Shown here one piece after another: positions 8,765-51,532 of a DNA stretch of 64,000 nt. The translations under genes were made by a program, and so were the position numbers. This stretch comes from Actinomyces timonensis DSM 23838. Lineage in GTDB: Bacteria > Actinomycetota > Actinomycetes > Actinomycetales > Actinomycetaceae. The notes below the pieces were generated by a model. That model had not been told where the DNA came from and did not search any database. It saw only the letters and a program-made list of their open reading frames with translations. Numbering within the stretch: the first letter of the stretch is position 1; each line of letters opens with the position of its first letter. Where the stretch lies: NCBI RefSeq assembly GCF_000295095.1, contig NZ_JH806634.1:163897-227896 (forward strand), given 5' to 3'.

Positions 8765-9682
8765 ATGCTTCTGGCGTACATCGATGAGACTGGCGAGCCT
8801 GGCGCCTACGTCTCTCCTCATCATGATCGGTACAAGACGAGCCCAGCCTTCGGCTATGCCGGATTCGTTATTCCGGAGACCTCAGTGTGGGACTTCGCTT
8901 CGAGTTTCCAGCGCAAGAAGAGGGAAGTCTTCGCCTCGGAGGTCGAGGGCGTCGAGAATCCGGGTCGATGGGAGCGCAAGGGCGCGAGTATCTTCCGCCA
9001 GAAGACGTTGCTGAGCCATCCGCAACAGTTCCGCGTCTTCTCTGGGCTCGTCAAAGAGCTTCGCAGGAGAGACGGGAGTCTGTTCTATTACGCTGATGAG
9101 AAGCCTTTGGGTACTCCGAAGCAGACGCTCTTGGATCCCGAGGAGAGAGAAGCCAACGCGATGAGGGAGGCTCTCAATCGCCTCGCTAGATACGCCGATC
9201 ACCGTGGCGAGAACATTCTTGTGATGATCGATCAGATCAACGAGAAGACGCGAGTCGAGCGTGTCGCCCGCATGTATGGCCATGTCTTCAATCGTGTGAA
9301 GGATTATCCGGAGATACGAAGGCTGGTTGAGCCGCCGATGCACATTGATTCCAAGCTGAGCGCATCCGTTCAATTCGCCGACTGGGTTGCCGCATGGGTG
9401 ACTCGGGCGATCGACTACCAGCTTGTGCGGGACTCGAGGCATCGATGGGTGGTCGATGCCGAACCGCTCAATGATCTCAAAGGGGTGTTCACTTACGAAT
9501 CAAAGCTGCATCTCCATGAGCGCACTGTCGAGGATATTAACAACTCGGAGATACTTGCCCGTTTCCGACCGATCTATCCTGTTCCTCACGGGCATCTCAT
9601 TGGTGCCAGTGTCGACCCCGATGTCGCAAGGAAGATGAGAGGAATCGCGGAGGCCTCTCGGCGTCGACGGCGACAAGAATGA
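8765..9682 (+). CDS. DUF3800 domain-containing protein
   Basis: 305-aa protein beginning LLAYIDETGEPG, the conserved acidic N-terminal motif of DUF3800. Further conserved pieces are AFGYAGFVIPE, the ILVMIDQIN strand and SVQFADWVAAWV (SxxLQxADxxA-like). The family is thought to have an RNase H-like fold but has no firmly established function; members often lie in mobile or defence contexts. Base composition and codon use are clearly less GC-rich than the flanking genes, which suggests recent acquisition. It stands alone, with its own promoter and structured leader, inserted between arcA and the menC-side genes. Confidence 0.8.
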   Translation: MLLAYIDETGEPGAYVSPHHDRYKTSPAFGYAGFVIPETSVWDFASSFQRKKREVFASEVEGVENPGRWERKGASIFRQKTLLSHPQQFRVFSGLVKELRRRDGSLFYYADEKPLGTPKQTLLDPEEREANAMREALNRLARYADHRGENILVMIDQINEKTRVERVARMYGHVFNRVKDYPEIRRLVEPPMHIDSKLSASVQFADWVAAWVTRAIDYQLVRDSRHRWVVDAEPLNDLKGVFTYESKLHLHERTVEDINNSEILARFRPIYPVPHGHLIGASVDPDVARKMRGIAEASRRRRRQE

Positions 9683-9704
9683 GGTGGAGCGCTCCGCCCG
9701 GGGG

Positions 9705-11063
9705 TCAGGCGGCGGGCTTGGGCCGGTAGGCCGTCAGCTTCCCCGTGTTGTCGTAGCCGATCAGCAGGTCGCCGTCATGGAAGTACCTCCACGAATCGAT
9801 GTCCCCGATCAGGATCGCGCCCGATTCCCCGCTCGAGCCGGGGTCGACGAGGCGCAGATAAAGGTTGTGATCGCGCACCTCGCGGACCTCGGCAAGAGGC
9901 CCGAACCCGCTGAGTCCGATGTAATTGATCGTCGCCGGTGTGCAGTCTTTGTCGCTTTTGCTGCCGGCCTTGCGGACAACGGAGTTGACATCAGCCAGCG
10001 AGAGAGTGGAGCCTCCGTGCTCGAGTTTGTTGAGGCAATCCGCGCCCGTCAGCGAGATCGACATCGTCGACGGCGCCCAGGAGGTGTCGGCGTTCTCGAT
10101 CCAGGCGCGCGCCTGGGCGACGCTCACTTGCGTGGGCGAGTACGGGAATGTGGCGTAGTTCTTGGAAAGGCTCTGGGAGATATCGCCCAATGACGAGCCA
10201 TCAGAGGAGTAAAGGGTGATCCGCGTGCTCCCGGAGCTCTTGTCCGTCGAGGTGACCAGCCAGCCATCAGACAGGTTCACCCAGGTGTCATCCGATGTGA
10301 TCGAGCCCATGGACTGGGCTGATCCATCATCAAGGTCCAATGCGAGCAGCTCCCCATCACTCGCCCCGTTCCCGGGTTTGATCCCACTCGTCACCGCGGC
10401 GTACCTGCCGCCGGACGAGAAACCCAGCCTCACGCGGAGATCAGTGTTCGTCGAGTCGATCGTCGTCCTCCAGCGCTCGTCGTAGCGGGAGGTCCACAGA
10501 GCGCAGTCATGGCCCTCGCAGGCCACGGCGGCGCTCGGCGAGACACTGACCACCGCGTCCGCCGACCACGGGGCGCGAACGCGCTCCTGGGTGTCGATGT
10601 CGATGAGCTGGTCTCGGTCGATCACCCAGTTCTTCCACACCCCGATGCTGCTCAGGGCGTGGTCCAGGGTCTGCTCCCAGACGGCCTCGACGCCGTCGCC
10701 GGTCTGCCGCAGCACCGTGATGACAGTGGAGTCACTCTGGACGACGATGCGGACGAACTTGTCGCCCGCTGGCCGGACCTCGGTCCGCTCGCCTTTGCCG
10801 GGAGCGTCGTAGGTCCATGCCTGCTCGGCGCCGTTGAGCCAGTTCGTGCTCCAAGGGCTGATCGCGCGCAGGGTGAGATCCTCCGGCGCCTGAGGGGATG
10901 ACGCGCCCAGCAGCGCGTACGCCGACGCCCCGCCCGCCAGGAGCAGGCTGACGGCCAGGACGATCGACATGAGCGCGCGCCTCCTGGCGTGGGCGCTCCC
11001 GGGCGGAGCCCCGGCGGCGGACCGCCGCTGAGGATCTGGGGAAGGGGACGGATCTGCGGCCAT
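9705..11063 (-). CDS. Membrane-anchored exported protein with probable beta-propeller fold, unknown function
   Basis: 452 aa. A short cytosolic Pro/Ala-rich N-terminus is followed by one transmembrane or signal-anchor helix (ALMSIVLAVSLLLAGGASAY, about residues 30-50). The rest is extracytoplasmic, with repeated beta-strand patterns typical of PQQ/WD40-like propellers, such as KFVRIVVQSDSTVITVLRQ and DRDQLIDIDTQERV. Two Cys pairs (CEGHDC and CLNK with DCTP) may form disulfides. No enzyme motif recognised. It ends 22 nt from the convergent DUF3800 gene. CATCCT lies 7 nt before the ATG, similar to leaderless starts nearby. Confidence 0.6.
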   Translation of the reverse strand: MAADPSPSPDPQRRSAAGAPPGSAHARRRALMSIVLAVSLLLAGGASAYALLGASSPQAPEDLTLRAISPWSTNWLNGAEQAWTYDAPGKGERTEVRPAGDKFVRIVVQSDSTVITVLRQTGDGVEAVWEQTLDHALSSIGVWKNWVIDRDQLIDIDTQERVRAPWSADAVVSVSPSAAVACEGHDCALWTSRYDERWRTTIDSTNTDLRVRLGFSSGGRYAAVTSGIKPGNGASDGELLALDLDDGSAQSMGSITSDDTWVNLSDGWLVTSTDKSSGSTRITLYSSDGSSLGDISQSLSKNYATFPYSPTQVSVAQARAWIENADTSWAPSTMSISLTGADCLNKLEHGGSTLSLADVNSVVRKAGSKSDKDCTPATINYIGLSGFGPLAEVREVRDHNLYLRLVDPGSSGESGAILIGDIDSWRYFHDGDLLIGYDNTGKLTAYRPKPAA

Positions 11064-44702: not shown

Positions 44703-46184
44703 GTGAGTACCCGCCCTCTCTCCGTCGCCGTCATCGGGGCAGGCCCCGCGGGCATCTACGCCTCGGACATCCTGTCCAAGTCGGGACTCGATGTGAACAT
44801 CGACCTCTTCGAACGGCTCCCCGCCCCCTACGGCCTGGTCCGCTACGGCGTCGCCCCGGACCACCCCCGCATCAAGCAGATCATCGTCGCGCTGTACAAG
44901 ATCCTCCAGCGCGGGGACATCCGCCTCATCGGCAACGTCGAGGTCGGCCGCGATATCACCGTCGATGAGCTGCGCGAGCACTACGACGCCCTCATCTTCT
45001 CCACCGGGGCGGACACCGACGCCCCCCTGCGCATCCCCGGGGCCGATGCCTCCGAGTGCTACGGCGGCGCGGACTTCGTCTCCTGGTACGACGGCCACCC
45101 CGACCACCCCCGCACCTGGGACCTGAGCGCCAAGGAGGTCGCCGTCATCGGCGTGGGCAACGTGGGGCTCGACATCGCCCGCGTCCTGGCCAAGCACGCC
45201 GAGGACCTCATGGTCACCGAGGTTCCCGCCAACGTCGCCGAGGAGCTGCGCCGCTCCCCGGTCACCGACGTCCACGTCTTCGGCCGCCGCGGCCCCGCCC
45301 AGGTGAAGTTCACCCCCCTGGAGCTGCGCGAGCTCGGCAAGCAGCCCGACGTCGACGTCCTCGTCGATGAGGAGGACTTCGAGTACGACGAGGGCTCCCA
45401 GGCGGCGCTCGCGGCCTCCAACCAGCAGCGCCAGGTGGTCAAGGCCCTCGAGGGCTACGCCATGGCGGAGCCCGAGGACCTCACCGCCTCCCACCGCATC
45501 CACATCCACCTCTTCTCCGCCCCCAGCGAGGTCCTCACGGACGAGGCTGGTCATGTGCGCGGCCTGCGCGTGGAGCGCACGCGCCTGACGGGCGACGGGA
45601 ACGTCGAGGGCACCGGCGAGTTCCGCGACTTCGACGTCCAGGCCGTCTACCGCGCCATCGGCTACGCGGGCAGCCCCATCGAGGGCCTTCCCTTCGACGC
45701 CGAGCGCCACGTGCTGCCCAACGCCGGCGGCCGAGTCCTGGGCGAGGGCGGCGAGCCGCTGACCGGCATCTACGCCACCGGCTGGATCCGACGCGGCCCA
45801 GTGGGCCTCATCGGCTCCACCAAGTCCGACGCCCAGGAGACCATCTCCAACCTCGTGGCCGACGCGCAGGCGGGTCTGCTCCACGCCACCACCTCTGACG
45901 AGAACCAGGTCGGGCACGACGCCGTCATGCTCCTGCTCAACAAGCGCGGAGTCCCCTTCACCACCTGGGACGGCTGGGAGCTCCTCGATGCCTACGAGCG
46001 GGGGCTCGGCGAGGACTTCGGCGAGGTGACGGTCAGCAGTGGGGAGTCCAAGCCCCGTGAGCGCGTCAAGGTGGTCTCCCGCGAGGCCATGACCGCGGTC
46101 TCACGCGGCACCGAGGTCCCCGCCGACCTCATCGGCGCCCCCGACCCCTCCCGCGTCCCCGAGCGCGTCGCCCACCGGCTCTGA
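44703..46184 (+). CDS. fprA: Ferredoxin-NADP+ reductase, FprA type
   Basis: 493-aa FAD- and NADP-dependent oxidoreductase of the adrenodoxin-reductase class. FAD fold SVAVIGAGPAGIYASDIL, the PAPYGLVRYGVAPDHP motif and NADP fold EVAVIGVGNVGLDIARVL are clear. ATGWIRRGPVGLIGSTKSDA is the family signature for FAD binding near the C-terminus. It moves electrons between NADPH and ferredoxin, and could thereby supply reduced ferredoxin to iron-sulfur enzymes. GTG 44703 has SD AGGAG. About 35 residues longer than the mycobacterial protein. Confidence 0.95.
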   Translation: MSTRPLSVAVIGAGPAGIYASDILSKSGLDVNIDLFERLPAPYGLVRYGVAPDHPRIKQIIVALYKILQRGDIRLIGNVEVGRDITVDELREHYDALIFSTGADTDAPLRIPGADASECYGGADFVSWYDGHPDHPRTWDLSAKEVAVIGVGNVGLDIARVLAKHAEDLMVTEVPANVAEELRRSPVTDVHVFGRRGPAQVKFTPLELRELGKQPDVDVLVDEEDFEYDEGSQAALAASNQQRQVVKALEGYAMAEPEDLTASHRIHIHLFSAPSEVLTDEAGHVRGLRVERTRLTGDGNVEGTGEFRDFDVQAVYRAIGYAGSPIEGLPFDAERHVLPNAGGRVLGEGGEPLTGIYATGWIRRGPVGLIGSTKSDAQETISNLVADAQAGLLHATTSDENQVGHDAVMLLLNKRGVPFTTWDGWELLDAYERGLGEDFGEVTVSSGESKPRERVKVVSREAMTAVSRGTEVPADLIGAPDPSRVPERVAHRL

Positions 46185-46335: not shown

Positions 46336-46716
46336 CGAGACGGTTTCTGCGGGCCGACGGCGCGGGAAGGGGCGGCTACAGCGCGCAGGGACGTTGGGGG
46401 CAGCGCTCCGGCGGTGCTCTCGAGGGTCCAGGGTCGCTCAGGAGCGCCCAGCGCCGCTCTGGACGTCCCACTTGGGTGCGTGCCGGAGGCCAATCCCCGC
46501 CCGCGATCATCCAAGATCGGGCACGACGGGCGGCCAAGTCATATCCGCGCTGCCCACTCGTGGGCCGCGATCGGCGACTGTCTCCGTCCCGGCGCAGATC
46601 CGCTGCTCGCATCATTGCTCCAGGTGAGCCCGGGGCCGCCGAGGCGTCGCAGATGGGCCTCGGCTTGCTGACACAGCCTCCTTGAAGGAGTCGCGACCGT
46701 CATACTTTCGGATGAG

Positions 46717-46745
46717 TTTGGCGATGCCAAAGGGTGATGTAGTAC
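46717..46745 (+). promoter_or_regulatory. Candidate promoter and operator of the epipeptide-like operon
   Basis: TTGGCG (46718-46723) and TAGTAC (46740-46745) are 16 nt apart. The -35 lies within the perfect palindrome TTTGGC-GAT-GCCAAA (46717-46731), which could be an operator. This would leave a leader of roughly 165 nt. Inferred only from sequence. Confidence 0.35.
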
Positions 46746-46919
46746 ACCTAAGTCCGCACGAATGTGCGACACGCGGGGAACTTCCGTATGGTGCGCGATC
46801 CCCTACCCGTGGTACTTCGGAGCGAAATCGATCGTATGGCTGGCGCTGAAGGTGTGAACTGCCTAACGTTGGCGTTGCCAATCGACCGACAATTGACCTC
46901 GATTGAGGGAGGTGAGATC

Positions 46920-47033
46920 ATGCAGGATCTGCTCGATGCGCTTATCGTGGACGACCGAGTCGTCAAGTTGTCTGACAGTGATGACCTTGGTTGGCTTCTT
47001 GTCAGCAACAACTGGGTTGCCGCTGGCTGGTGA
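46920..47033 (+). CDS. YydF/EpeX-like epipeptide precursor peptide
   Basis: 37-aa peptide, too short for routine gene calling. ATG 46920 has a very strong SD, GGGAGGTGA, ending 4 nt upstream, better than almost any other gene here; the longer in-frame alternatives at 46764 and 46836 have none. The N-terminal part is MQDLLDALIVDDRVVKL, and the C-terminal part SDSDDLGWLLVSNNWVAAGW is Trp-rich and aliphatic. From memory, B. subtilis YydF has LLDES near its middle and ends NDLWYF-V-KSKENRW-I-LGSGH, a clearly similar layout. No Cys, Ser/Thr-rich core or GG leader is present, so a lanthipeptide or sactipeptide is unlikely. The radical SAM gene follows. Confidence 0.72.
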   Translation: MQDLLDALIVDDRVVKLSDSDDLGWLLVSNNWVAAGW

Positions 47034-47044
47034 CGGCTGCGAAG

Positions 47045-47078
47045 TGGGTGCGGGCGCCACTGGAGGCGCCCGCACCCA
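47045..47078 (+). terminator. Hairpin between precursor and radical SAM gene
   Basis: Perfect 14-bp stem (TGGGTGCGGGCGCC with GGCGCCCGCACCCA), loop ACTGGA, starting 12 nt after the precursor stop. No T-tract. It may attenuate transcription or protect the precursor mRNA, so that peptide is made in excess over enzymes. Confidence 0.6.
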
Positions 47079-47112
47079 TCGCCCAATTCGATACCACTAT
47101 CAAGGTGTTCTA

Positions 47113-48057
47113 ATGCAACGTGTGATTATCGCTCCGCATATGAAGTGCAATGCAAGATGCGCTCATTGCTGCGTGTCGTCCCATCCAAAGGATGAGAGGC
47201 ACTTAGAGGATGCTACAGTTGTTCGTCTGATCGACGAAGCCATCGCCTCACCGTCGATCAAGATAGTCGCGTTCACTGGTGGAGAGGCGTTGCTGCGCAA
47301 GTCCTTCATACTGGAGCAGATGAGACGTTTGAAACGAGCTGGCAAACGAAGCACGATCGTTTCAAATGGATTCTGGGGGATCACGGAAGCGAGCGCCAGG
47401 GGAGTTCTTCTAGAATTGGCAGACGCTGGCGTCCGAACTATCACGATCAGTGCTGACACCTTTCATCTGCCTTATGTGCCAATCGAGCGAGTGAGGAACA
47501 TCCTCAAGGTGAGGGATGTCGCGCCCGAAATCGAATTCGCTGTCAACATCTGCCAGTCGCGAAGTGAGCCCGCCAGTAAGACGCTGGACCAACTAGAAGG
47601 CCTCCTAGAAGGTGTGCATATCAACAGTTTCAATATTACACCTGTTGGGCAGGCCGAGGGCATCGCATCATGCGAGATAACGTACGATCATGTCTCAACC
47701 GAGAACCTGAAGTGCCCAGGACAGGTTTTGCTGTTCTCGGGTGACGGCCAAGTCTACCCATGCTGTTCGCTGGGTGTCATCAACAGCGCTCTTTCGGTTG
47801 GTGACGCCAATGAACTCACGATCGAGGAGGGGGCGCGTCGCATAGAATGCAACCTTGCATTCAAGATTATGACAGAAGAAGGCCTGGGGTGGTTTGTGGA
47901 AAAGCTCAAGAGGAATGGGGATGAACGATTCGCTGAGCCTTTTCCCGTTGTCGATGCCTGTCATCTGTGCAGCGTGATCTTCGAGAACAAGAGTAGAATC
48001 AGCGAACTGCGGAATGATTTCGAGGAGTACAAGGCTCAATATGTGAGTGAGCGCTGA
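47113..48057 (+). CDS. Radical SAM peptide-modifying enzyme, YydG/EpeE-like
   Basis: 314 aa, close to the ~319 aa of YydG. The radical SAM cluster motif C-x3-C-x2-C is KCNARCAHCC (Cys12/16/19), and TGGEA at 55-59 is the SAM-binding strand. Extra cysteines (201, 217, 218, 283, 286; YPCC and CHLC) suggest a C-terminal auxiliary iron-sulfur cluster. YydG-type enzymes convert L-Val and L-Ile residues of the precursor to D-residues, with a cysteine donating the hydrogen. The epimerase assignment rests on gene order and precursor similarity, so another radical modification is possible. ATG 47113 has AAGGTG upstream. Confidence 0.8.
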   Translation: MQRVIIAPHMKCNARCAHCCVSSHPKDERHLEDATVVRLIDEAIASPSIKIVAFTGGEALLRKSFILEQMRRLKRAGKRSTIVSNGFWGITEASARGVLLELADAGVRTITISADTFHLPYVPIERVRNILKVRDVAPEIEFAVNICQSRSEPASKTLDQLEGLLEGVHINSFNITPVGQAEGIASCEITYDHVSTENLKCPGQVLLFSGDGQVYPCCSLGVINSALSVGDANELTIEEGARRIECNLAFKIMTEEGLGWFVEKLKRNGDERFAEPFPVVDACHLCSVIFENKSRISELRNDFEEYKAQYVSER

Positions 48058-48077
48058 GCCGAGGGGATGGAAGCGTC

Positions 48078-48887
48078 TTGTCAAACCGACTTGATCGACT
48101 CAGTCGACTCAAAGAACGGCCGTCGTGGCAGTCGTGCTGCGAGGACGACATCGAAATCGTCAGGCACGGAGATCGTGTTGTGATACATGATCGCGCTAGC
48201 GATACCTACTTCAAGACGACCTTTGTGGTGATTGGGGAGAGGCCTGTTGCCTGGGTGGACAAGGCTTCTCGCCTGTCGACGCTATGGCTGGGCGTCTACG
48301 TCATGCTGTTTCTCGCGATGTTGATCAATGGGTTGCTATGGCTGCTGGGGTATCTCGCTTCAGACGTGGCTTCAGAAAGGCTCAATGGAGGCGGAGGCCT
48401 CGTCCTGGCGGCGACGTTAGTTGTCAGTAATCTGCTCATCCATGAGGCTGGTCATGTCCTGGCGTTGCGATGGTGCGGAAGGCGTCCTGACAAGGTGGGA
48501 TTCAAGATGAACTATTGGGTCATGCCGGCATTCTTCGTTAGAATGAATCAGGTATCACTTCTCCCTAGAAGGGAAAGGCTGCTCTGCCACTCTGCCGGAC
48601 TCTTCGCTAACTTGATCGCCGTGAACCTGCTCGTATTGTGCCAGGAAGTTCTGGGCCTGGGTGAGGAGGGGAGATATGGAACTGCCTTGGTGATGATCTT
48701 TGTCGCCACCAACTTGTTGCCCTTGTGGAATGCGGATGGTCAACGTATGCTATTGGCGTGCTTCGATCTTGAGGAAGTCGAGGGCTGGTCGGATGCGCCA
48801 AAGCCCATTCTGGTTCTGAGGATTGTCTCGCTCGGGGTATTGGCCTATATTATCATTTTCGTTGTCGTGTCGTTCCTTCGGAGGTGA
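48078..48887 (+). CDS. M50-type membrane zinc protease, YydH/EpeP-like
   Basis: 269-aa membrane protein with about five helices. The zinc site is LLIHEAGHVLALRW (His122, Glu123, His126), and NLLPLWNADGQRML (Asp220) supplies the third ligand, the site-2-protease layout. It is expected to cut the modified precursor inside or next to the membrane. The only good start is TTG 48078, with GAGGGG upstream at a long spacing; an ATG at 48068 is in another frame. Placed between the radical SAM gene and the ABC genes, as in yydFGHIJ. Confidence 0.78.
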   Translation: MSNRLDRLSRLKERPSWQSCCEDDIEIVRHGDRVVIHDRASDTYFKTTFVVIGERPVAWVDKASRLSTLWLGVYVMLFLAMLINGLLWLLGYLASDVASERLNGGGGLVLAATLVVSNLLIHEAGHVLALRWCGRRPDKVGFKMNYWVMPAFFVRMNQVSLLPRRERLLCHSAGLFANLIAVNLLVLCQEVLGLGEEGRYGTALVMIFVATNLLPLWNADGQRMLLACFDLEEVEGWSDAPKPILVLRIVSLGVLAYIIIFVVVSFLRR

Positions 48888-48894
48888 TCTGGAT

Positions 48895-49584
48895 ATGGGT
48901 GATATTGTTGTTGAAGGGATTCGCCTTTCGGTGTCTTACGGCAAGCATCGCGCAGTCTCGGACATGAGTTTTAGAGTAGACGCGGACGATGGTGTTGTCG
49001 GCATGTTTGGCCCGAACGGCGCCGGGAAAACCACGTTGTTCAAGACGGTCTGTGGCGATATTGGGAGATATGACGGTGCGCTGAGGTGCCCCAGTCGAGA
49101 TGAGATCGCCTATCTACCAGATAAGCCGTTCTTGTTCTCCTGGATGACAGTTGGGCAGGCGATTGATCTGTTCAGCGCGAGGCACCAGGATTTTCGCGAT
49201 GATGTCGTGGAAGAGTTTCTCGCTGGGTCCGCGATTAAAAGGTCGGCGCCTGTGGGAAGCCTTTCGAAAGGGATGTCGGAGCGCTTGCATCTGGCTCTGA
49301 TCATGGCGAGGCGGCCAAGACTATATGTCTTGGATGAGCCGTTAGCTGGCGTCGATCCCCTGACTCGTGATCGCTTGATCGAGAACATCATCGAAGTTCG
49401 ATGTCAGGAGGCTCCAATGTTGTTGAGTACCCATCTGATCGAGGGGGTTGAGCGCGTCTTCGACGCTGTCATGATGGTGGTGGACGGGCGGCTGCTCCGC
49501 TCTGGAAAGGTTGCCGATGTTCGGCGGATCGGTGATGGGTCCCTCGAGATGGCATTTAAACGTTTGGTGGCCGCACATGAATGA
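48895..49584 (+). CDS. ABC transporter ATP-binding protein, YydI/EpeA-like
   Basis: 229-aa ATPase. Walker A FGPNGAGKTTLF (39-50), Walker B LYVLDEPLAGVD (Asp147-Glu148) and switch His in LLSTHLIEG are intact. The signature is LSKGMS instead of LSGGQ, as in many peptide-immunity exporters. SD GGAGGTGAT precedes ATG 48895. It overlaps the permease by 8 nt. Likely role: export of, or immunity to, the peptide. Confidence 0.85.
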   Translation: MGDIVVEGIRLSVSYGKHRAVSDMSFRVDADDGVVGMFGPNGAGKTTLFKTVCGDIGRYDGALRCPSRDEIAYLPDKPFLFSWMTVGQAIDLFSARHQDFRDDVVEEFLAGSAIKRSAPVGSLSKGMSERLHLALIMARRPRLYVLDEPLAGVDPLTRDRLIENIIEVRCQEAPMLLSTHLIEGVERVFDAVMMVVDGRLLRSGKVADVRRIGDGSLEMAFKRLVAAHE

Positions 49585-50311
49585 TTTGAGGATGGTCCTG
49601 CGTCGTCATGGACGGTTCTTCCTGCCCATCTTGGTACTCGCGTTGGTCGTTGCTGTCGCAGGGCGGGTGGGATCTGGGCAAATGGTGGCACAGATGCACG
49701 CGCTGGGTGTCATGCTGCTCTCATTCGGAGCGTCATTGTATGCGCTAGATTACTTGGTGCGGCATGTGGCCCTTTGCAGTGAGAGGATCTTCTTCCTCTC
49801 TCCACTGCCGAGATGGAAGATGGCGGGTTTGCACGGTTGTGTTCTCTGGTCGTATTTGATGGTTTTGTACGCCGTCGTTAGCCTTTCGGATTCTGGTCGA
49901 GGCGAGACTAGTTGGAGTGCGGTGCTCCTAGGGCTCATCGCAAAGGGGGTCGCTCTAGCCTGTGGCATGTTGATGATGCTCATAGGCGCTTCTGCTGGCA
50001 AGCGGGTCGCCGGGCCTGGTATGGCGCGCTCGGTCTCATGGGGCATGTTCGTCTTCATGCAGATTCTTGCGTTCGCGACGCTGTATTTCTCCCTCGTCAG
50101 GCGTTTTGCTGATCACTGGGTCGTGGGCGCAGTGACTGGTGATGATTTCTCGTGCTACTATCTCGGAATGATCCCGCTTCAGGGGCAGTACGTGGTGGAT
50201 CCTGAATATCGGATGCTTCAGCTCGTCTGCGCGAACGGCGTGCTCCTGGCGCTTCTGGTCGGGGTGTGTCTCCTCATCGGGAGGACGCGGCAGAATTATC
50301 TGGAGAAGTAG
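49577..50311 (+). CDS. ABC transporter membrane subunit, YydJ/EpeB-like
   Basis: 244-aa protein with about six hydrophobic helices and no other known domain. It starts MNDLRMVLRRHGRFF at 49577 within the ATPase end and finishes LIGRTRQNYLEK. An upstream in-frame ATG exists but would overlap the ATPase gene widely. It partners the preceding ATPase and is the last gene of the cluster; the assignment is by position and topology rather than sequence motif. Confidence 0.7.
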   Translation: MNDLRMVLRRHGRFFLPILVLALVVAVAGRVGSGQMVAQMHALGVMLLSFGASLYALDYLVRHVALCSERIFFLSPLPRWKMAGLHGCVLWSYLMVLYAVVSLSDSGRGETSWSAVLLGLIAKGVALACGMLMMLIGASAGKRVAGPGMARSVSWGMFVFMQILAFATLYFSLVRRFADHWVVGAVTGDDFSCYYLGMIPLQGQYVVDPEYRMLQLVCANGVLLALLVGVCLLIGRTRQNYLEK

Positions 50312-50382
50312 AGCGCGATCAGTCGGTGAATGCTGTCCTGGGACAAGCGGTCGTGTCGTGGTCGCATCGTCGGGTGCCTCCA

Positions 50383-50457
50383 GCACCGGTGGTTGCGCCG
50401 AGCACCTTCGGGTGCGGTGAGAACGCAACCCAAGGTGCCAGGCGCAACCACCGGTGC
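50383..50457 (+). terminator. Long hairpin after the peptide operon
   Basis: GCACCGGTGGTTGCGCC (50383-50399) and its exact complement (50441-50457) are 17-bp arms. Inside, GCACCTT/AAGGTGC (50402-50408, 50432-50438) and GGGTGCG/CGCAACCC extend the fold, so the 75-nt element is almost wholly self-complementary. Probably the operon terminator. Confidence 0.65.
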
Positions 50458-50644
50458 AGAATGTCGCCGCCGGTGCCAGACGCGCCTGACGTCACCGCCT
50501 CTCCAACTGCCGCCCAGTCCGTTCCAGGACGTCTGAGACGCCAACACCGTCCCAGATGCCTTGGCACACCACAATCTCGATCCTGATGTCCACCGGTCGC
50601 GCGCGGGCCCGGCCGTTGCACAGGGCGCGCACAGGTGGCTCCGC

Positions 50645-50650: not shown

Positions 50651-50656
50651 GACGGC

Positions 50657-51532
50657 ATGTCGGCGATCTACCGAGGCACCAACCACCACAACGGCCTGAA
50701 GACCACCGCCCTCCTGGGCGGCATGTGGGGCCTGCTCATCCTCATCGGCTACCTGCTCACCCGGGGCACCGGCTCCTCGATCTTCCTGTTCATCATGCCG
50801 CTCATCGGGGTGGCCCAGACCGCGTACACCTACTGGAACTCGGACAAGCTCGCCGTGCGCTCCATGGGCGCCATCGAGGTCACCGCCGCCCAGGAGCCCG
50901 TCATGCACAAGGTGGTCGCTGAGCTGTCGGCGGCCTCGGGCCAGCCCATGCCGCGCCTTTTCATGGCGCCGACGATGAGCCCGAACGCCTTCGCCACCGG
51001 CCGCAACCCCGCCAACGCCGCCGTGTGCTGCACGCGGGGCATCCTCCAGCTCCTCGATGAGCGCGAGCTGCGCGGCGTGCTGGGCCACGAGCTCTCCCAC
51101 GTCTACAACCGCGATATCCTCACCGGCTCCATCGCCGCAGGCATCGCCGGGGTCATCTCCTCGCTGGGCACGATGGCCCTGTGGTTCGGCACTGGCCGCG
51201 ACCGCCGCGAGGGCAACGGCCTGGCCGTCCTCCTCCTGGCGCTCCTCGCCCCGCTGGCCGCCACCGTCACCCAGTTCGCGATCTCGCGCACTCGCGAGTA
51301 CGACGCCGACCACGACGGCGCGGTCCTCACCAACGACCCGCTCGCCCTGGCCAGCGCCCTGCGCAAGCTCGACGGCGGCATCGCGGCCGCGCCCATGGCG
51401 CGCGACCCGCGCATGGAGCCCGTGAGCTCGATGATGATCGCCAACCCCTTCGGGCGCGTCAAGAACCTCTTCGCCACCCACCCCCCGATGGCCGACCGCA
51501 TCCGCCGCCTGGAGCAGATGGCCGGGTACTGA
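50657..51532 (+). CDS. htpX: HtpX-type M48 membrane metalloprotease
   Basis: 291-aa membrane protease for quality control of membrane proteins. Two N-terminal helices precede the zinc site LGHELSHVYNRD (His144, Glu145, His148), and the third ligand is in RTREYDADHDGA. The ending LFATHPPMADRIRRLEQMAG is typical for HtpX. The longer upstream frame lacks a start signal; TACTCT sets the start at 50657. Confidence 0.94.
   Translation: MSAIYRGTNHHNGLKTTALLGGMWGLLILIGYLLTRGTGSSIFLFIMPLIGVAQTAYTYWNSDKLAVRSMGAIEVTAAQEPVMHKVVAELSAASGQPMPRLFMAPTMSPNAFATGRNPANAAVCCTRGILQLLDERELRGVLGHELSHVYNRDILTGSIAAGIAGVISSLGTMALWFGTGRDRREGNGLAVLLLALLAPLAATVTQFAISRTREYDADHDGAVLTNDPLALASALRKLDGGIAAAPMARDPRMEPVSSMMIANPFGRVKNLFATHPPMADRIRRLEQMAGY

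Follow-up and report, generated by a model that had tools for sequence, protein, structure and literature searches.

The question raised by a low-GC cluster of five genes in Actinomyces timonensis DSM 23838 is whether it is an actinobacterial relative of epeXEPAB, the epipeptide locus of Bacillus subtilis. The cluster lies in a stretch of 64,000 nucleotides (contig NZ_JH806634.1, positions 163,897 to 227,896), called the window here. Coordinates are positions of the window, and the letters X, E, P, A, and B stand for the genes in the positions of epeX, epeE, epeP, epeA, and epeB. The gene content and protein sequences suggest that this is very probably a divergent epipeptide locus of the epeXEPAB type, making a 14-residue peptide with D-amino acids and providing self-immunity.

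The epe locus is reportedly restricted to Firmicutes (Popp et al. 2021). The accessible parts of published accounts likewise present it as spread or conserved within Firmicutes, or list only hosts from that phylum (PMC7614699, PMC12871923, PMC8326336). Among the papers that literature searches listed, no title or abstract opening mentions an actinobacterial epe locus, with subscription journals largely outside this coverage. According to the available text of earlier work, EpeE of B. subtilis epimerizes Val36 and Ile44 of EpeX to D-residues and a 32-residue leader is removed (PMC8326336, PMC5808125, PMC12871923, PMC7614699, PMC7026026, PMC10885120). In that organism the protease is probably EpeP, and immunity comes from EpeAB (PMC8326336, PMC12871923, PMC7614699, PMC7026026, PMC10885120), and deletion of epeP left some product (PMC10885120). 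Epipeptide clusters have also been tried in E. coli, and no modified peptide was observed (PMC9576775). The proteusin epimerases of the PoyD type are, like EpeE, radical S-adenosylmethionine (SAM) enzymes that introduce D-residues into peptides. Unlike EpeE, they are described in a review as having a single cluster and a RiPP recognition element (RRE; RiPP, ribosomally synthesized and post-translationally modified peptide), with no significant homology between the two groups (PMC8326336).

Gene order, predicted epimerase, and protease

The cluster consists of five uninterrupted open reading frames (ORFs), all on the plus strand, in the order precursor, radical SAM enzyme, M50 protease, ABC ATPase, and permease. 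The original prediction gave the same order and placed the cluster at 46690..50311. All of the genes fall within that range, and the precursor ORF starts 230 bases inside its left end. The order of the genes is that of B. subtilis, and further shared features are a YydG-type epimerase with the Cys223 pair, an M50 protease with an HExxH motif, a short precursor with a C-terminal modified core after [ND]DL, and a hairpin between X and E.

E is most closely related to the YydG peptide epimerases. Its top NCBIfam model is TIGR04078 (247.6 bits, 2e-73, residues 4-306 of 314), and the next family is about 200 bits lower (9.9e-12). A search with hidden Markov models (HMMs) had been proposed as a check on the assignment, and the best family is YydG rather than an unrelated one. 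E also matches the solved YydG chains (6.6e-50, residues 9-306). Alignments show that it keeps the radical SAM cysteines, the Cys222-Cys223 pair, and the C-terminal CxxC. We take Cys223 to be the hydrogen-donor cysteine of YydG. A review, as far as its text is accessible, prints the donor as cysteine 233 (PMC5808125); by sequence the cysteines there are 222 and 223.

The top family of P is NF058609 (YydH/LiaK; 138 bits, 4e-40), and Pfam M50 also matches. In addition P gives a hit to the model for daptide intramembrane proteases (1.6e-11), as would be found if this were a daptide-type or other protease-centered peptide cluster. That is extremely improbable. The YydH/LiaK match is far better, a Bacillus EpeP shows the same weak daptide match (1.6e-15), and no other daptide enzyme was matched among the five genes. 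Daptides are defined by their modification enzymes, and the daptide reading was ruled out since none of these is found among the five genes.

The arrangement recurs in other Actinomycetota. A pattern-based scan of a collection of 84,980 species gave 163 stretches with E relatives, and the results here come from the best 80 of the 163 (79 loci). In the lower part of these 80 the matches cover only part of E and resemble general radical SAM proteins. Ten actinobacterial loci are named here: Arcanobacterium sp. SUG972 (L041), A. israelii DSM 43320 (L042, the same genome as G042), two Curtobacterium (L043 and L045), Microbacteriaceae VKM Ac-2855 (L044), Cellulosimicrobium (L046), Boudabousia (L047), Cellulomonas hominis (L048), Nocardiopsis ganjiahuensis (L051), and Bifidobacterium bohemicum (L056). 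Left off this list are the remnant L061, the loci L063 and L069-L071, and every weaker locus. All ten have a precursor ORF directly before E (the start codon in L047 is unclear), tblastn matches to P and A behind it, and the order X-E-P-A. The comparison of neighborhoods that had been suggested thus gave a conserved order with a precursor beside E in 10 of 10 loci; eight of the precursors are YydF-like and two, those of A. israelii and Arcanobacterium, are window-like. E of the window is 56% identical to that of A. israelii, 52% to that of Arcanobacterium, and 33-40% to those of the other eight loci.

Precursor peptide and hairpin

X starts with ATG behind a ribosome-binding site and contains no cysteine. 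Its relationship to YydF was assessed with profiles searched against 332 stop-to-stop ORFs of at least 20 amino acids, taken from 1.2 kb upstream of E in each of 12 actinobacterial loci. These are the ten named loci, the window, and G107, a genome of another Actinomycetaceae genus; the precursors used for training were chosen by eye. With an HMM from eight Bacillota YydF peptides, the precursor was the top ORF in eight of the 12 loci (1.9e-11 to 3.8e-5). The precursors of A. israelii, Arcanobacterium, and G107 were also first in their own loci, but at 0.44-1.4. When the eight actinobacterial precursors were added to the HMM, the four untrained precursors took ranks 9-12 of 332. X of the window, one of these four, became the top ORF of its locus (E 0.0018, rank 12), and the next non-precursor scored 4.7. 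An HMM from the actinobacterial peptides alone gave X 1.4e-4. As judged by this stepwise profile, X is homologous to YydF.

X also appears to be under purifying selection. Between the window and A. israelii there are 12, 4, and 17 changes at the three codon positions, with dN 0.24, dS 1.34, and dN/dS about 0.18, a rough value from 37 codons. The comparison with Arcanobacterium gives the same pattern.

The predicted core of X differs from that of the Bacillus peptide. The core, GWLLVSNNWVAAGW, has 14 residues and no charged side chain, whereas the B. subtilis core has 17 residues and a charge of +2. The calculated [M+H]+ of the predicted core is 1572.80, with [M+2H]2+ at 786.90. The second epimerization site, that of EpeX Ile44, aligns with Val33. 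The first, that of EpeX Val36, would be Leu27 by a gapless anchor on DDL (Met in A. israelii, Leu in Arcanobacterium) or Val28 by an anchor on WxxV (Val in A. israelii, Ala in Arcanobacterium). The sites are 5-6 residues apart in the window rather than 8, with Leu or Val at site 1. The precursors of A. israelii and Arcanobacterium resemble X and have the cores DDLGWFMVGSNWVVAGW and DDLWWVLASSNWVLAGPR. In contrast to the window, the eight other named precursors end like Bacillota YydF, with DD[LM]WYF[VI], a short loop, and W[IV]xG; both Curtobacterium precursors have AVIVG in place of W[IV]xG.

On the epipeptide reading, translation would give X as a precursor of 37 residues. E, in which the radical SAM center is joined by an auxiliary iron-sulfur cluster, would take alpha-hydrogens from chosen core residues, and the equivalent of Cys223 would give hydrogen back from the opposite face to form D-residues, by alignment Val33 and either Leu27 or Val28. 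P would act as an intramembrane metalloprotease and cut off the leader, most likely after DDL. We infer that the released hydrophobic, uncharged 14-mer would be toxic, acting on the membranes of competing or sibling cells, and that A and B would form an ABC transporter protecting the producer.

A hairpin separates X from E. The stretch 47030-47115 (86 nt) folds at -45.7 kcal/mol versus -28.2 for shuffled sequences (z -5.6). The hairpin is unique within the window, and its stem has no T run. In a rougher comparison with single-base shuffles, z is at most -2.5 for the X-E intergenic stretch in 6 of 12 loci from Actinomycetota and in 4 of 5 from Bacillota, with little in the other seven. In B. 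subtilis the region between X and E contains a terminator and is subject to post-transcriptional control, according to the available part of one report (PMC12871923). The hairpin sequences are unrelated by eye, so a shared role as attenuator across the loci is only a suggestion.

Transporter and departures from the Bacillus type

The original prediction saw YydG, YydH, YydI, and YydJ in the four larger proteins; E and P do have YydG and YydH as their best families, while A is a canonical ABC ATPase with a generic family match and B is not detectably similar to YydJ. No credible family match to B was found in NCBIfam or Pfam. B has six hydrophobic segments, as does a Bacillus EpeB, and it is related by tblastn to B of A. 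israelii and Arcanobacterium. A profile of these three proteins matches B of six other actinobacterial loci (98.8%, E 8.5e-17); L045 and L046 were omitted because the start of the ORF is unclear. The window resembles the eight other named loci in gene order, in A (similar by tblastn in 8 of 8), and in B for the six that were compared. The ATPases of the actinobacterial and Bacillota groups align, as ABC ATPases generally do.

Three genomes of another Actinomycetaceae genus (G107, G112, and G113; L038, L039, and L040) have X-E-P followed by frames of 456 and 247 amino acids. X was read in G107 and G113. The frames in G107 encode an FtsX-family permease and an ABC ATPase. These frames, and the lack of detectable similarity between B and Bacillota EpeB, suggest that the immunity part is less conserved than X-E-P. 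The G107 precursor, MSSTTDALKELNLDSELIELTDQDDHWHFITCGIIIGSGGC, contains two cysteines.

Several results weigh against the epipeptide assignment. E and P are below the curated NCBI cut-offs of their families (247.6 of 300 bits for TIGR04078 and 138 of 225 bits for NF058609). Position 210 of E is acidic in all 13 Bacillota rows aligned and is Val in the window. X has no match to TIGR04077, the NCBI YydF model, and with the HMM from Bacillota peptides alone it is second in its own locus (E 13). A profile of nine actinobacterial B proteins, the window included, compared with eight Bacillota EpeB proteins gives a probability of 0.2% (E 0.38). YydIJ of B. subtilis is described in the accessible text as a minor determinant against added peptide (PMC7026026). 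Finally, two sister copies of the cluster have a damaged E.

Some of these departures recur in related loci. The TIGR04078 cut-off is reached by two of nine other actinobacterial E proteins scanned (304.1 bits in Curtobacterium L043 and 332.2 in Microbacteriaceae L044), so automated annotation may already name some of these enzymes. All eight other actinobacterial P proteins tested miss the NF058609 cut-off (113-185 bits; Bacillus control, 363.5), and P of L043 was assessed by tblastn. At position 210, A. israelii has Val, Arcanobacterium has Ser, the two Curtobacterium, VKM Ac-2855, and Bifidobacterium have Gln, and the other five actinobacterial rows have Glu. Since six other actinobacterial rows are non-acidic, there would be no strict requirement at this position if those enzymes work. 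The deposited YydG chains also differ there, D versus A. The original prediction held the C-terminus of the precursor to be YydF-like and proposed a search with YydF models; the stepwise HMM agrees with the resemblance and TIGR04077 does not. TIGR04077 scored all three Bacillota controls over its cut-off of 35 bits and the four other actinobacterial precursors tested below it (23.6-34.6 bits), and it gives no match for any of the three precursors of the window clade (window, A. israelii, and Arcanobacterium). These misses may explain why such loci carry no YydF name.

The departures could also mean that the cluster belongs to another class of radical SAM RiPP, such as a sactipeptide, ranthipeptide, or cyclophane, with a borrowed YydG-like enzyme. 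The unmatched X, the score of E under the equivalog cut-off, and the non-acidic position 210 would fit this. It is nevertheless highly improbable, given that the next families for E are about 200 bits worse, the stepwise HMM links X to YydF, the Cys223 donor is kept, and P is YydH/LiaK-like. A cysteine thioether is impossible with an X that lacks cysteine, and on this ground the sactipeptide reading was ruled out. As judged from its sequences, the locus is a member of the epipeptide group on gene order, on E, on the best family of P, and on X by the stepwise profile; it departs from a plain YydF-YydJ member in missing two curated cut-offs and the YydF model, in residue 210, and in the permease.

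The damaged copies bear on whether the cluster is a decaying, non-expressed relic. In another Actinomyces genome (G045, L022), E is split by a 1.245-kb insert with an IS630-family transposase (NF033545, 2.6e-53). E of A. israelii (L042:6001-6941) is in frame to about residue 277, and the rest, before the C-terminal CxxC, is in another frame; whether this is a sequencing error or a real break cannot be told. The copy in Cutibacterium modestum is a remnant. The damage in G045 and A. israelii shows that the system is not indispensable. For the window itself a relic is improbable, as all five genes are open and X shows the purifying pattern against both A. israelii and Arcanobacterium. The C. modestum M12 remnant (L061:5463-7711) is epeE-like and decayed, consisting of two pieces with 52-56% identity and a broken frame. 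It sits between genes that Pfam identifies as those for ribosomal proteins S17 and L14, and no match to P, A, or B was found in the fetched locus.

The function of the peptide could differ even if the locus is of the epipeptide type. The peptide might be a signal or a self-acting cannibalism factor, with A-B as exporter or sensor. The uncharged predicted core, compared with the +2 Bacillus peptide, is in line with this, and the Bacillus peptide is described as affecting sibling cells and inducing a stress response (PMC12871923, PMC7026026). On the other side, no regulator or receptor gene was recognized in the island, where four of the small ORFs before X were compared with Pfam and gave no match, and the ABC transporter in the equivalent place gives partial immunity in B. 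subtilis (PMC7614699, PMC12871923). On balance we regard a signal or cannibalism factor as rather unlikely.

A further, tentative possibility is that the clade of Actinomyces and Arcanobacterium has a rebuilt epipeptide, with the acidic residue at 210 lost, D-Leu or D-Met at site 1, a shorter core, and a transporter of separate origin. The shorter core would be uncharged in both Actinomyces.

Genomic island, distribution, and phylogeny

The cluster is a low-GC island in a high-GC genome, as had been predicted. The GC content of its five genes is 0.52-0.57, versus 0.71 in the flanking reductase gene and htpX, and third-position GC is 0.59-0.68 versus 0.95-0.97. The three closest genomes by htpX (G004, G033, and G036, with 99%, 98%, and 97% identity) have no match to E. 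In two of them the site is empty: between the BLAST ends, reductase and htpX are joined by 7 bp in G004 and 26 bp in G036, in place of the 4237 bp found in the window. G033 (L122) has about 1.1 kb of other DNA at this junction, and the place may be a variable site. The features are listed in Table 1. Scans for promoters and terminators were uninformative in the window (three terminators versus 3.7 expected; five promoters versus 1.6 expected, weak matches).

Table 1. Coordinates in the window, strand, and supporting evidence for the island, its genes, and the flanking genes
Feature	Coordinates	Strand	Evidence
Island, 4237 bp by BLAST ends versus G004	46374..50610		Empty site in G004 (7 bp) and G036 (26 bp); GC 0.569
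X, epeX-like precursor, 37 aa, MQDLLDALIVDDRVVKLSDSDDLGWLLVSNNWVAAGW	46920..47033	+	Stepwise HMM, dN/dS; ribosome-binding site AGGGAGGTGAG at about 46906-46916
Hairpin X/E, perfect 14-bp, possible attenuator	47045..47078	+	Folding versus shuffles
E, epeE-like radical SAM peptide epimerase, 314 aa	47113..48057	+	TIGR04078, solved YydG chains, Cys223 equivalent
P, epeP-like M50 intramembrane metalloprotease, HEAGH, TTG start	48078..48887	+	NF058609, Pfam M50
A, ABC transporter ATPase (epeA position)	48895..49584	+	PF00005 3.3e-19; Walker A, signature, LDEP, STH
B, six-TM (transmembrane segment) permease (epeB position)	49577..50311	+	Hydrophobic segments; tblastn and profile relatives
FAD/NAD(P)-dependent reductase, presumably fprA-like, left flank, outside cluster	44703..46184	+	PF07992 3.7e-11
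htpX, right flank, outside cluster	50651..51532	+	NF002839 2.5e-129, above cut-off

Two other features of the window may be mentioned. A 53-nt imperfect inverted repeat (77%) lies at 50364-50476, directly after B and near the right end of the island. A second low-GC spot is a DUF3800 gene at 8765-9682 (7.3e-16), where the bin 9001-10000 has a GC content of 0.586.

The system is rare and scattered. Within the family Actinomycetaceae, 8 of 213 genomes, including that of the window, have an E relative at E <1e-50, and two of these copies are broken (G042 and G045); G030 was not counted, as its match covers only 129 residues. Among 396 genomes drawn from the order, five (own included) have a relative at E <1e-40. 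An even draw across the phylum found a full-length match in 1 of 396 genomes, the window's own, and two partial matches. E also matches 12 plasmid records, and two of the four inspected, both from Macrococcus, are epe clusters. The matches on Collinsella and Halocatena plasmids were rejected as epe clusters, because the annotation next to E shows neither an M50 protease nor an ABC transporter. E has no match in the phage collection, and a search of viral contigs with this single protein found none. Streptococcus sciuri (L054) has a YydG-type E (430 bits) followed by frames for P, A, and B, and no YydF-like precursor is present among the ORFs listed before E.

The cluster appears to have moved within Actinomyces. 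G045 has the same cluster in the same place with 98% DNA identity, compared with 86.7% for the reductase gene and 81.2% for htpX (77% for the HtpX protein). These differences support a recent transfer of the cluster between two Actinomyces species. In G045 another stretch of about 2 kb, different from the window, separates the cluster from htpX. The neighboring genes of the A. israelii and Arcanobacterium loci are other than those of the window.

Transfer between phyla, suggested in the original prediction, is not borne out by the phylogeny of E. Trees were calculated without B. spizizenii, whose E is identical to another row, and three outgroup rows were omitted from the second tree. The window groups with A. 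israelii and Arcanobacterium in a single clade (support 100/100). Without an outgroup, Actinomycetota and Bacillota are on opposite sides of a branch with modest support (83/86); with an outgroup, the Bacillota come together at 59/11 only and the actinobacterial rows need two changes. With this root the Actinomycetota appear no shallower than the Bacillota, and the long branches make this unsure. A recent Firmicutes donor was rejected, as the nearest relatives among the matches listed are all actinobacterial. The direction and date of any exchange between the phyla cannot be told.

Epipeptides are among the simplest ribosomal antibiotics with D-amino acids, and the scattered actinobacterial branch provides natural variation in substrate and enzyme, amounting to about a dozen variants. 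Where tested, the precursors of this branch and most of its enzymes score below the curated cut-offs. Some features of these variants are fixed, namely the DD boundary, Cys223, and an aliphatic second site, while the spacing of the sites, the charge, residue 210, and the permease change. With fixed and varying features both visible, direct tests of the selectivity of the enzyme and of the function of each part become possible. If the Actinomyces-Arcanobacterium clade does have a rebuilt epipeptide, X-E-P would be an old unit that crosses phyla and has exchangeable immunity modules, and the FtsX-type transporter after X-E-P in the three genomes of another Actinomycetaceae genus bears on this. 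If the peptide is active, it would be a candidate weapon in competition for some actinobacteria.

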